From: Micromonospora sp. WMMD1120 | GTDB lineage: Bacteria > Actinomycetota > Actinomycetes > Mycobacteriales > Micromonosporaceae | Direction of reading: 5' to 3' | Length of the DNA stretch: 64,000 nt | Assembly: GCF_029626235.1 (NCBI RefSeq) | Contig: NZ_JARUBO010000005.1 | Span: 1,892,501-1,956,500, forward strand | Shown: in pieces, positions 48,293 to 54,671 of the stretch | Position numbering within the stretch: the first letter of the stretch is position 1 | Layout of the letters: each line of letters begins with the position of its first letter | Notes under the pieces: generated by a model | What the model saw: only the letters and a program-made list of their open reading frames with translations | Databases searched by the model: none | What the model was told of the DNA's origin: nothing | Position numbers and translations under genes: made by a program

Positions 48293-48812
48293 CTGTCACC
48301 TCTTAAAGAGCACGTGTCGGGTCGATCGGGTCGATCGTCCCGGTTCCCACCGGTAAAGATCAAGGCCCGTTCCGGAGCGCCGCAAACGTACGGCACCGAC
48401 GCTCCGCCCGCGACCCCCGACCCGCCCGACCGCGGGTCAACGCGTTCCGGGGCGGCGCGTGCGACGGGAGCCTGGCGTGTGGGGGGAGTCGTGGGCGGCG
48501 GGGTTCTGCCGGCTACGGACATCTCAGCCGCCTCTCCGAGGGTGCCGAGTGGTGGATCTGTCCCCCACGCACAGTAGGATTGACAGCGAGACGAAGACCC
48601 GGTGCGGGAGCGGGGCGGGGCCGGTGGCCCTGGTTCATTCTCCACGTCGGGTCGAGCCGATCGCGATCCGCGGGCAACCGCGGCGACCGGCGCGTTCGAC
48701 CCGTTGTCCGGAAGTCTCCGGCACCGGTCCGCGCGTCGACGTCGCGTCCTGTCCGCCGAACCCGCGCCCGACGCGCCCTACCGGCGCGGCTGACGCGAGA
48801 AAGTGGCCGAGG
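48293..48812. other. Gap upstream of gyrB
   Basis: A 520-bp gap. No gene is supported; the gyrB frame stays open upstream, but lacks conserved content. A TAGGAT near 48574 could be a -10 element, with no good -35. Confidence 0.3.
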
Positions 48813-50759
48813 GTGGCAGCGCAGGACAAGCAGGAGTACGGCGCAGAGTCGATCACCGTTCTCGAGGGTCTGGAGGCGGTTCGCAAGCGGCCCGGTATGT
48901 ACATCGGGTCCACCGGCGAACGCGGCCTCCACCACCTTGTTTGGGAGGTTGTCGACAACGCTGTCGACGAGGCGCTGGCCGGATACTGCGACACCATCGA
49001 CGTCGTGCTGCTCGCCGACGGCGGTGTCCGGGTCACCGACAACGGGCGTGGTTTCCCGGTCGATCTCCACCCCAAGCTGAAGAAGCCGGGTGTCGAGGTC
49101 GCGCTCACAGTGCTGCACGCGGGCGGCAAGTTCGACGGCAAGGCGTACGCGGTCTCCGGCGGTCTGCACGGCGTCGGCGTCTCGGTGGTGAACGCGCTGT
49201 CCACCCGGATGGCCGTCGAGATCCACAAGTCCGGCTTCGTGTGGCGGCAGCAGTACACCAACTCCAAGCCCACCCCCCTGGAGAAGGGCGAGGCCACCGA
49301 CCGCAGCGGCTCGGCGGTCTCCTTCTGGCCCGACCCGGACGTCTTCGAGACCGTCGACTTCGACTTCCAGACCATCTACCGGCGCCTCCAGGAGATGGCC
49401 TTCCTCAACCGCGCCCTGCGCATCCACCTGCTCGACGAGCGGGTCGCCGAGGAGGAGGACGGTCGCCAGCGTGAGGTGACCTTCTACTACGAGGGCGGCA
49501 TCTCCGACTTCGTCCGGCACCTCAACGCCTCGAAGAACCCGATCCACAAGACCGTGGTCGAGTTCGGCGCCGAGGAGGAGGGCATGTCGGTCGAGATCGC
49601 CATGCAGTGGAACGAGTCGTACGGCGAGTCGGTCTACACCTTCGCCAACACGATCAACACGCACGAGGGCGGCACCCACGAGGAGGGCTTCCGGTCCGCG
49701 CTGACCAGCGTGGTCAACCGGTACGGCACCGACAAGAAGCTGCTCAAGGGTGACGAGAAGCTCTCCGGCGAGGACATCCGCGAAGGGCTCGCGGCGATCA
49801 TCTCGGTCAAGCTGGCCAACCCGCAGTTCGAGGGTCAGACCAAGACCAAGCTCGGCAACACGCCGGTGAAGAGCTTCGTGCAGCGGGTCTGCAACGAGTG
49901 GCTCGTCGACTGGTTCGACCGTAACCCGGCCGAGGCCAAGATGATCATCCAGAAGGCGTCCCAGGCGGCTCGCGCCCGGATCGCCGCCCAGCAGGCGCGC
50001 AAGCTGGCCCGGCGCAAGTCGCTGCTGGAGTCCGGCTCGATGCCGGGCAAGCTGGCCGACTGCCAGTCGACCGACCCGCGCGAGTCCGAGGTGTTCATCG
50101 TCGAGGGCGACTCGGCCGGTGGCTCGGCCAAGCAGGGTCGCGACCCACGGACGCAGGCGATCCTGCCCATTCGCGGCAAGATCCTCAACGTGGAGAAGGC
50201 CCGGATCGACCGGGTGCTCAAGAACAACGAGGTCCAGGCGCTGATCACCGCGCTGGGCACCGGCATCCACGACGACTTCGACATCGAGAAGCTGCGCTAC
50301 CACAAGATCGTGCTGATGGCCGACGCGGACGTCGACGGCCAGCACATCCAGACCCTGCTGCTCACCCTGCTGTTCCGCTTCATGCGTCCGCTGGTCGAGC
50401 TGGGGCACGTCTACCTGGCCGCCCCGCCGCTCTACAAGATCAAGTGGAACAGGAAGGGCGACGACGCGCAGTACGCCTACTCCGACCGCGAGCGGGACGG
50501 GCTCATCGCGCTGCGCCAGCAGAAGAAGGCCAACGCCAAGCCGGACGACATCCAGCGGTTCAAGGGCCTCGGCGAGATGAACTATCCCGAGCTGTGGGAA
50601 ACCACGATGAACCCGGCGACCCGTACCCTGCGTCAGGTCACGCTCGACGACGCGGCAACCGCCGACGAGTTGTTCAGCGTCCTGATGGGCGAGGACGTCG
50701 AAGCCCGCCGGTCGTTCATCCAGCGCAACGCCAAGGACGTGCGGTTCCTGGACATCTGA
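48813..50759 (+). CDS. gyrB: DNA gyrase subunit B
   Basis: The 648-residue subunit has the GHKL ATPase domain: [46 protein letters not shown] and [15 protein letters not shown]. The TOPRIM domain has [29 protein letters not shown] and [15 protein letters not shown]. The C-terminus ends with [20 protein letters not shown] at 48813 was chosen; [14 protein letters not shown] is the family N-terminus. It forms the A2B2 gyrase with the product of the next gene. Confidence 0.98.
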
Positions 50760-50888: not shown

Positions 50889-53800
50889 GTGACTGATTCG
50901 CCCGAGTCCACACCGAACGAGCCCGAGGTCCCCGCCGAGGCCATCGCCGCGGTGGTCGCGCACGACCGGATCGAACCGGTCGGGCTCGAGGTGGAGATGC
51001 AGCGCTCCTACCTCGACTACGCGATGAGCGTCATCGTCGGGCGCGCGCTGCCGGACGTCCGGGACGGGCTCAAGCCGGTCCACCGCAAGATCCTCTACGC
51101 GATGTTCGACTCCGGCTACCGGCCGGACCGTGGCTACGTGAAGTGCTCCCGCGTCGTCGGCGACGTGATGGGCCAGTTCCACCCGCACGGCGACTCGGCG
51201 ATCTACGACGCGCTGGTCCGGATGGCGCAGCCGTGGTCGCTGCGCTACCCGCTGGTCGACGGCAACGGCAACTTCGGCTCGCCGGGTAATGATCCGGCTG
51301 CCGCCATGCGCTACTGTATTACGGGAAATGTCCGTATTCGCACCGCCGAGGGCAGCGTGCGGATCGCGGACGTGGTCGCCGACGCCGCGCCGTCCAGCGA
51401 GATCGACATCGACCTCAAGGTCCGCGACCGCAACGGCGACCTGGTCCGCGCCTCGAAGTTCTTCCACTCCGGCGAGCACCCGACGCTGCGGCTACGCACC
51501 CGCGAGGGGTACGAGCTGACCGGCACCCACAACCACCCGGTGCTCTGCCTGGTGGACGTGGCCGGAGTGCCGACCCTGCTGTGGAAGCTGCTCGCCGAGA
51601 TCTCCCCCGGCGACCGGGTGGTCCTCCAGCGCAGCGTGCCGGACGAGATCGGCTACCCGATGCTGGAGCACGTCGAGGCGGCCGTTCTCGCCGGCGCCTT
51701 CGTCAGCGAGGGCTGGGTCTCCGCGAACCGCGCGGGCTTCAACAACGTCGACCGGGAGTTCTTCGTCCGCGTCCTCGCGGCGTATAACCTGGCCGTCGGC
51801 GGACCCCGTTACGTGAGCGAGCGGGTCATCGCCTCGGGCAGCGTTTTGCACGAACTCGACGTGCAGGACGTCGCCGCGCTGCGTGCGAGCGTCCTCGGCG
51901 AGATGGTGGGCGCGCGTAGCGCCGCCAAGTTCGTCCCCGAGTTCGTCTGGCAGGGGCCCGCCGCGATCAAGCGGGCGTTCCTCCAGGCGCTGTTCGAGGG
52001 CGACGGCTCGTCCTCGCTACTGCCGCGCAACACCATCCAGATCTCGTACTCCACTCGCAGCGAGCGGCTGGCAGCCGAGGTCCAGCAGTTGCTGCTGGAG
52101 TTCGGCGTGATCAGCCGGCAGACCCGCTACGACGACGGCGAGATCAAGGTCGTGGTGACCAACCGCCGCGACGCCCGGATCTTCGCCGCCCACGTCGGGT
52201 TCCTGGGCCGCAAGCAGGCCAAGCTGGAAGCCGAGCTGGCCCAGGTGCCGGCGAGCAGCACCGCGCTCGCCAGCGACCACGTGCCGCTGGTCGGCGACTT
52301 CATCCGCGAGCATGGCGCGAGCCGTTGGACGGAGCGGGACTGGCTGCGGCGGCACAACGTGGACCGGATCGAGCGGTGGGAGCGGGACCGCGACGAGATC
52401 GCGGCCCGGATCACCAACTCCGAGGTGCTCGACGTGGTCGAGCCTTTGGTCGACGGGCGTTTCTACTACGCCGAGGTGGCGCAGATCACCGACGCCGGTG
52501 TGCAGCCGGTCTACAGCGTCCGGGTCGACACCGACGACCACTCGTTCGTGTCGGACGGGTTCGTCAGCCACAACACCGAGTGCAAGCTCGACCCCCTCGC
52601 GATGGAGATGCTGCGGGACATCGACGAGGACACCGTCGACCTGCAGGACAACTACGACGGCCGGGCCAAGGAGCCCACCATCCTGCCGTCGAGGATTCCC
52701 AACCTGCTGGTGAACGGCTCCGAGGGCATCGCGGTCGGCATGGCCACCAAGATCCCGCCGCACAACCTGCGCGAGATCGGCGCAGCGGTGCAGTGGTGCC
52801 TGGAGCACCCGGAGGAGGACGAGGAGACCACCCTCGAGGCGCTGCTCGGCATCGTCAAGGGGCCGGACTTCCCGACGCACGGTCTGATCGTGGGCACGAC
52901 GGCGATCCAGGACGCGTACCGCACCGGTCGCGGCTCCATCCGGATGCGGGCCGTGGTGGAGGTCGAGGAGGACAAGCGGGGTCGGCCCTGCCTGGTCGTC
53001 AGCGAGCTGCCCTACCAGGTCAACCCGGACAACCTCGCCGAACGGATCGCCGAGCTGATCAAGGAGGGCAAGCTCGCCGGCATCGCCGACATCCGCGACG
53101 AGTCCTCCGGCCGTACCGGTATGCGGATTGTGCTGGTGCTCAAGCGCGACGCGGTCGCCAAGGTCGTGCTGAACAACCTCTACAAGCACACCCAGCTCCA
53201 GGAGACGTTCGGCGCCAACATGCTGGCGCTGGTCGACGGCGTGCCGCGGACGCTCAACCTGGCCCAGTTCATCAGGTACTACGTCGAGCACCAGATCGAC
53301 GTGATCCGCCGGCGGACGGCGTTCCGGCTGCGCAAGGCCGAGGAGCGGGCGCACATCCTGCGGGGTCTGGCCAAGGCGCTGGACGCCCTGGACGAGGTGA
53401 TCGCCCTGATCCGGCGCTCGCCGACGGTGGAGGACGCGCGGCAGGGCCTGATCCGACTGCTGGAGATCGACGAGATCCAGGCGACCGCGATCCTGGACAT
53501 GCAGCTGCGGCGGCTCGCCGCGCTGGAGCGGCAGCGGATCCTCGACGACCTGGCCAAGCTGGAGATCGAGATCGCCGACCTGAAGGACATCCTGGCCAAG
53601 CCGGAGCGGCAGCGGAAGATCGTCTCGGAGGAGCTGGGCGAGATCGTCGCCAAGTGGGGCGACGATCGGCGTACGCAGATCATCCCGTTCGACGGCGAGG
53701 TCTCGATGGAGGACCTCATCGCCCGCGAGGACGTGGTCGTCACGATCACCCGGACCGGGTACGCCAAGCGGACCAAGGTCGATCTCTACCGCTCCCAGCG

Positions 53801-54671
53801 GCGCGGCGGGAAGGGCGTCAGTGGCGCTACGCTGCGGCAGGACGACATCGTCAGCCACTTCTTCGTCTGCTCGACCCACGACTGGATCCTGTTCTTCACG
53901 AACAAGGGCCGGGTGTACCGGGCCAAGGCGTACGAGCTACCGGAGGCCAGTAGGGTAGCCAAGGGCCAACACGTGGCCAATCTGCTCGCCTTCCAACCGG
54001 ACGAGCAGATCGCGCAGATCATCGAAATCCCGGACTACCAGGTAGCCCCCTATCTGGTACTGGCCACGAAGAACGGCCTGGTGAAGAAGACGCGGCTCGA
54101 GGAGTTCGACTCCAACCGTTCCGGCGGCATCATCGCGATCAACCTGCGCGATGAGGACGAGCTGGTCGGTGCTGCGCTGGCTGCCCCGGAGGACGACCTG
54201 CTGCTGGTCTCGAAGAAGGCGCAGGCGATCCGGTTCAACGCGTCGGACGAGGCGCTGCGGCCGATGGGCCGGGCCACCTCGGGGGTGATCGGCATGCGCT
54301 TCACGGACGACGACGTCCTGCTGGCCATGGAGGTCGTCCGAGAAGGTCTGGACGTCCTGGTGGCCACGAACGGGGGATATGCGAAGCGCACCCCGATCGA
54401 GGAATACCCGGTGCAGGGCCGGGGAGGTAAGGGCGTGTTGACTGCGAAGATCACCGAACGGCGCGGTGGTCTGGTCGGCGCGGTGGTGATCGACCCGGAC
54501 GACGAGCTGTTCGCGATCACCAGCAACGGTGGTGTCATCCGGACTCCGGTGAAGCCTGTACGCCGTACGCGTGACCGGAACACAATGGGGGTCAAGCTGA
54601 TGGACCTCCCGGACGGCGTGACTATCGTGGCAATTGCTCGCAATGCCGACGAGCCTGACGAACAGGACTAG
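50889..54671 (+). CDS. gyrA: DNA gyrase subunit A precursor containing an intein
   Basis: The 1260-residue precursor would splice to an 840-residue GyrA. The extein has [20 protein letters not shown], the quinolone-resistance region [17 protein letters not shown] and the catalytic Tyr142 at the end of AAAMRY. The intein begins at Cys143 and ends at Asn562; the extein resumes [13 protein letters not shown]. The C-terminal pinwheel contains the GyrA box QRRGGKG and the usual repeats. GTG at 50889 has AAGGG just upstream. The uninterrupted intein frame and intact splice junctions indicate a functional enzyme. Confidence 0.97.
51315..52574 (+). mobile_element. GyrA intein with LAGLIDADG homing endonuclease
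   Basis: The 420-residue intein starts [10 protein letters not shown] and ends DGFVSHN before a Thr+1. Splicing block B is [11 protein letters not shown] and blocks F/G are [17 protein letters not shown] and FVSHN. The middle holds two dodecapeptides, [10 protein letters not shown] (Glu274) and [10 protein letters not shown] (Asp372), so the DOD-type endonuclease domain appears intact. The site (after the catalytic Tyr) is the same as the mycobacterial GyrA inteins. The first codons (TGT ATT ACG GGA AAT GTC CGT ATT) are notably less GC-rich than the rest. Confidence 0.95.

Follow-up and report, generated by a model that had tools for sequence, protein, structure and literature searches.

The gyrA gene of Micromonospora sp. 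WMMD1120 is interrupted by an insert that is, judged by its sequence, a full-length class 1 GyrA intein. We consider it very probable that this intein, which is of the NF038098 type, excises itself from GyrA and that its endonuclease, most likely still able to cut empty alleles, is still homing. Patchy presence in the genus, conflict between intein and host trees, and an endonuclease that is under purifying selection with both catalytic acids retained together suggest a still-mobile allele, which lends support to an earlier sequence-only reading of this DNA in which the allele was thought possibly mobile.

Anatomy and closest relatives of the GyrA intein

The window (the whole stretch of 64,000 nucleotides that was analysed) is part of a 7.15-Mb genome. 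In it, gyrA is preceded by an open reading frame at 48459-50759 that is called gyrB here from its sequence and its VEGDSA motif. Translation of 51315-52574 in the gyrA frame gives a 420-residue intein that begins with CITGNVRI, ends with GFVSHN and is followed by T563. The sequence-only reading had placed an intein from Cys143 to Asn562, with Thr at +1, and its coordinates proved exact. It had also put the insertion directly after the tyrosine of the GyrA active site. The position agrees, as Tyr142 (...PAAAMRY) directly precedes Cys143; Tyr142 is taken here to be the catalytic tyrosine of GyrA. Removal of the intein leaves 840 of the 1260 precursor residues, and the stop-to-stop frame of intein-less gyrA has 840-844 codons in all 34 empty genomes among the 61 sampled. 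One sampled genome (G045) has a second, cut gyrA place of 604 codons.

Residue numbers are tied to the GTG start at 50889, and database versions of the protein begin up to 45 codons later. Among the matches listed, relatives range from 1215 to 1260 aa, and a 100% identical protein has 1239 aa. Given these differences in length, the gyrA start is uncertain and residue numbers may shift.

Table 1. Features of the intein-containing gyrA gene, in window coordinates
Feature	Position	Strand	Basis or remark
gyrA precursor ORF	50889..54671	+	1260 codons + stop, GTG start as listed; NF038098 over residues 27-1258
N-extein, residues 1-142, last residue Tyr142	50889..51314	+	RY^TE in 34 intein-less relatives
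GyrA intein, 420 aa, Cys1-Asn420	51315..52574	+	translation, family models, relatives
N-terminal splicing part, intein 1-108	51315..51638	+	2-108 align to 1am2; TIGR01445
Block B TGTHNHPV, intein 69-76	51519..51542	+	motif in alignment
LAGLIDADG homing endonuclease part, intein 109-310	51639..52244	+	PF14528; PI-PkoII 2cw7 profile match
First LAGLIDADG motif, intein 125-134, acid E132 (precursor E274)	51687..51716	+	alignment
Second LAGLIDADG motif, intein 223-232, acid D230 (precursor D372)	51981..52010	+	alignment
Stretch 3' of endonuclease part, intein 311-370	52245..52424	+	several invariant columns in alignment A1
C-terminal splicing part, intein 371-420, blocks F and G, penultimate His, Asn	52425..52574	+	TIGR01443, 1am2/4oz6, alignment
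C-extein, Thr563 (+1) to end	52575..54668	+	translation
AT-ending-codon stretch over N-terminal splice junction	51276..51353	+	10/26 codons; codon counts

Class 1 inteins have Cys or Ser at position 1, a TxxH motif in block B, a penultimate His, a C-terminal Asn and Cys, Ser or Thr at +1. All of these residues are present in the window intein (C1, T71 and H74, H419, N420, and T563 at +1), and T71 and H74 are invariant in 26 aligned GyrA inteins. The splicing blocks A, B, F and G of the earlier reading could all be located, with F and G within intein 399-420, although the assignment of block names to motifs is one that we presume. The NCBIfam models TIGR01445 and TIGR01443 score 37.4 and 22.6 bits with the intein alone (cut-offs 24.5 and 15.6), and NF038098 scores 2364.5 bits with the precursor over residues 27-1258 (cut-off 1850). 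The Pfam model Intein_splicing (PF14890) reaches 28.6 bits, below its cut-off of 35.8. Probably the inserted endonuclease weakens this score, and the model is not defining for class 1. The endonuclease part carries two LAGLIDADG motifs with an acid at each catalytic position (E132 and D230), the Glu and Asp that had been read from the letters, and Pfam LAGLIDADG_3 (PF14528) scores 72.6 bits against a cut-off of 22.5.

From what is known of the family, the intein would be translated inside GyrA and would leave it by an acyl shift at Cys1, transfer to Thr+1, cyclisation of Asn420 and ligation of the exteins. In the joined 840-residue GyrA, Tyr142 would then be followed by Thr-Glu, as in intein-less relatives. 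The endonuclease, with its two LAGLIDADG motifs, most likely still cleaves gyrA alleles whose insertion site is empty, and repair of the cut allele, after DNA has passed between species, would copy the intein in.

The precursor differs in nothing essential from NF038098 (intein-containing DNA gyrase subunit A); NCBIfam already models exactly such a protein, and the window intein adds one more case. A database search in which 8000 candidates were scored returned 2325 proteins at E <= 1e-10, and many of the best 120 of these 2325 bear the name 'intein-containing DNA gyrase subunit A'; their sources are Micromonospora, Verrucosispora, Plantactinospora and Solwaraspora. The nearest listed intein relatives are ~95% identical to the window intein; among the loci searched, the nearest named ones belong to Micromonospora parastrephiae, M. 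parva and M. orduensis (94-95% identity). No publication about Micromonospora GyrA inteins or ParC inteins was found among the matches listed, which covered titles and abstract starts, with subscription journals mostly outside.

Mycobacterial GyrA inteins, including the M. xenopi form without an endonuclease, had been named as the known comparison, and a review (PMC8861304) gives a length of 198 aa for the M. xenopi GyrA mini-intein. That mini-intein (1am2, 4oz6) aligns only to window intein residues 2-108 and 372-420 and has the C-terminal FVSHN in common with it, whereas the window intein is ~220 residues longer and includes an endonuclease. To this comparison can be added the M. leprae GyrA intein, given as 420 aa in a table of the same review (PMC8861304). 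By that table entry it resembles the window intein in gene and length, so GyrA inteins of full length were known before. The archaeal intein endonuclease PI-PkoII (2cw7) matches the profile of 26 relatives (A1) with an E-value of 1e-9, and the match is limited to window intein residues 118-282, the LAGLIDADG part.

Occupied and empty gyrA alleles in Micromonospora

The sequence-only reading had proposed a comparison of alleles in related strains. Our sample comprised 61 Micromonospora genomes, the window's own included, which were drawn from a larger group and are partly drafts. In 27 of the 61 gyrA carries the intein (416-420 aa, RY^C...HN^TE), and the remaining 34 have an exact empty site (RY^TE). 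No shortened gyrA intein was found in the 61 sampled genomes. Intein presence needs at least 13 changes on a tree of parE+parC, which is unlinked DNA, and at least 12 on a tree of the gyrA C-extein; well-supported branches alone yield 9 independent pairs of occupied and empty alleles. On the reference tree only ~1% separates an occupied genome (G012) from an empty one (G049); the position of G012 there comes from parE, its parC piece being absent. With occupied and empty gyrA in such close species, Micromonospora is a natural test bed for bacterial intein homing.

Trees for the 27 carriers were built from the intein, from parE+parC and from the gyrA C-extein, and so rest on few genes. Tested on the intein alignment, both host topologies are rejected (lnL differences 322 and 313); tested on either host alignment, so is the intein topology. 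The two host trees differ from each other by much less (lnL differences 51 and 58), with mutual rejection in the AU test but not in the SH test. Since the host trees also disagree, part of the conflict between intein and host may be ordinary recombination. Two genomes that are sisters on both host trees (G035 and G046) have inteins in different clades, and end branches within Micromonospora are longer for inteins than for exteins (median 0.07 vs 0.024).

Beyond the genus, the intein of one Plantactinospora locus (L047) has 0.871 nucleotide identity to its best Micromonospora counterpart, with an extein at most 0.831 identical to any carrier compared; for a second (L056) the values are 0.845 and at most 0.824. 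On a protein tree that included five Micromonospora GyrA inteins, L056 falls among these five and forms a pair with G046. An Actinoplanes locus (L058) gave no sign of transfer (intein 0.812, extein at most 0.848), and the intein values of L057 and L078 are unusable, as these were compared ungapped. Two loci were left out of the alignment: the partial L077, and L076, whose break falls at N in a draft, so that the apparent frameshift looks like an assembly gap. In phage and plasmid collections no close copy of the intein was found, all matches being below 60% identity.

The flanking DNA gave no clear co-conversion signal in partial Mantel tests over 12 windows. Four of the 12, uncorrected, had p < 0.05 (upstream -78..-40, 0.037; downstream 301-600, 0.0225; 601-1200, 0.0455; and 1201-2000, 0.0005). 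The farthest window is the strongest, so these values do not point to conversion near the insertion site.

State of the endonuclease and alternative explanations

Over 351 non-independent pairs, a simple counting method gave a median dN/dS of 0.064 in the C-extein; within the intein the medians were 0.140 for the endonuclease part, 0.247 and 0.136 for the N- and C-terminal splicing parts and 0.169 for 311-370, the limits between intein parts (108/109, 310/311 and 370/371) being our own choice. In the window's own clade, represented by its four closest carriers (six pairs), dN/dS was 0.08-0.14 in the endonuclease and 0.15-0.49 in 311-370. The endonuclease is under purifying selection. Needs of folding or splicing, rather than DNA cutting, could account for this constraint.

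The catalytic positions were compared in 89 aligned inteins. The genus sample contributed 27 gyrA and 8 parC inteins, and a wider search with 56 loci contributed 54, so that some genomes are represented twice. The first position is Glu in 88 and Asp in one. At the second, 87 have Asp; the in-frame intein of L046 (Micromonospora lutea) has Tyr, and that of L075 (Actinokineospora inagensis) has Ser. The L075 GyrA intein, in which the second acid has thus gone from Asp to Ser, is in frame and shortened to 367 aa. Another in-frame GyrA intein (L072), whose source strain bears the label Micromonospora sp. NBRC 107566, is shortened as well, with 363 aa. Loss of nuclease residues therefore happens, also within the genus (L046), yet in none of the 27 sampled alleles.

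These mutated or shortened relatives are what an alternative explanation would lead one to expect, namely that the intein splices while its endonuclease no longer cuts, and that the element is passed on by inheritance and moves only passively, when gyrA fragments that contain it recombine. The disagreement among the host gene trees fits such passive movement as well. We nevertheless judge it unlikely. The endonuclease dN/dS is low, also in the window's own clade, and all 27 gyrA inteins have 416-420 aa, whereas the 13 ParE inteins of the same genomes include short forms.

A use to the host, for example in regulating gyrase maturation, could keep the endonuclease part in place of homing. Insertion exactly at the active site and purifying selection on every part measured are compatible with this, but 34 of the 61 relatives live without the intein and the state changes often, so a selfish element fits better and we rate host use as quite improbable. 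That the insert does not splice, with GyrA made as two pieces or not at all, is extremely improbable, since every residue needed for splicing is in place, dN/dS points to constraint on the splicing parts and no second gyrA was found in the own genome, against which stands only the PF14890 score below cut-off.

A self-excising intein with a probably active homing endonuclease is the reading we favour, and it bears on the gyrase of the host. In the window's own genome, a search with the GyrA C-terminal part found no second, intein-free gyrA; the sole other match was a ParC-like subunit, 37% identical, whose own tyrosine site is empty. Because no stand-in was found, the gyrase of this host should need the predicted splicing of GyrA, and here too the sequence-only reading, which had gyrase activity depend on splicing, is supported. 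Such dependence has already been raised for inteins in essential proteins of pathogens in a review abstract (PMC8529194), and the finding leaves the general picture of inteins unchanged.

Codon usage at the N-terminal junction and related inteins

Among the gyrA loci compared (that of the window and L089-L148), the 27 carriers have many AT-ending codons around the N-terminal splice junction, between codons -13 and ~+13. Mean GC3 over codons -13 to -1 is 0.63 in carriers vs 0.84 in the 34 empty alleles, and the first ten intein codons have a GC3 of 0.49 vs 0.83-1.00 in other ten-codon blocks. No AT-rich signal was seen at the C-terminal splice junction in carriers. Carriers and empty alleles differ over the last 12 codons with p = 9e-7, a value uncorrected for kinship. 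Among the 9 independent pairs, at a threshold of 3, a mean of 5.3 changed together, 0.0 against and 3.7 showed no difference (median p 0.06, borderline); at a threshold of 4 the means were 4.3, 0.1 and 4.6 (median p 0.125). Three control windows gave 4.0 for vs 1.5 against, 4.4 vs 1.5 and 1.0 vs 1.1, so that two of three lean alike.

Equally low stretches of 26 codons occur in 10 of 42 GC3-rich frames of the window, so that in one genome alone the junction signal would be little out of the ordinary. In a class sample of 29 gyrA loci (best matches from 49 genomes), GC3 is high in 21, which include at least one carrier; these 21 have 0.92 in the junction stretch vs 0.95 before it. M. rosaria (L041) is without the junction signal, as are L059 and L061 from other genera, and L071 and L075 have it in part. 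A similar GC3 dip occurs in ParC genes whether or not they contain an intein, an argument against tying the AT-rich codons strictly to the intein. We tentatively raise, while doubting it, the possibility that ~78 nt over the N-terminal junction are selected synonymously for AT-ending rare codons, perhaps slowing translation or loosening RNA as the intein begins. If this were true, the intein would shape codon choice in its host gene, at the entry junction only.

We had also considered a co-conversion footprint, in which the intein would have brought the AT-rich upstream flank along. For the last 39 nt upstream in 27 alleles, a partial Mantel test gave r = -0.02 (p = 0.57). Given this null result, and with the AT-richness running into the intein itself, that reading was dropped.

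The same test bed offers inteins in both subunits of the second topoisomerase: those of the ParC-like subunit lie at the corresponding tyrosine, those of the ParE-like subunit follow EGDSALG. The ParC-like subunit has an intein of 429-430 aa at the RY tyrosine in 8 of the 61 genomes and none in 53 (an example is L081:2020-3306; listed proteins P0123-P0242). The ParC-like inteins of Micromonospora and Pseudonocardiales share position and two-motif architecture with the GyrA intein at 45-48% identity. With NF038098 the ParC intein precursor scores 1034.8 bits, below the cut-off of 1850, and with PF14890 the ParC sister intein scores 26.8 bits, also short of 35.8. Among the 120 proteins listed in a database search, the ParC insert occurs in those named for Lentzea, Saccharothrix, Amycolatopsis, Actinokineospora and others; most are called 'DNA gyrase subunit A' or 'DNA topoisomerase IV', and the visible names mention no intein. 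In a quick tree of a chosen subset, with two long rows, 22 GyrA and 30 ParC inteins form the two sides of one branch (support 100). A recent jump between GyrA and ParC is left unsupported by this clean split.

The ParE-like gene of the own genome (L001:1501-2850) has a 450-aa intein after EGDSALG, with an HNH match below cut-off. Counting the own genome, 13 of the 61 have a ParE intein; ten have 484 aa and one each 450, 316 and 165 aa, lengths that suggest that the nuclease was lost in steps. All 13 carriers have Ser directly after the ParE intein, where all 48 empty alleles have Thr (L149-L208, L001), as if the Ser had been brought in with the intein. A similar change, from proline to serine, is described for MCM inteins in PMC10643990. 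At the VEGDSA site of gyrB no intein was found in 60 genomes, G045 being unreadable there. In the GyrA of Staphylococcus phage vB_StaM_SA1 (L239:1501-2619), an insert with a weak LAGLIDADG match, just under the cut-off, lies at the same residue as the Micromonospora intein (RY^CLTG...HHN^TE).
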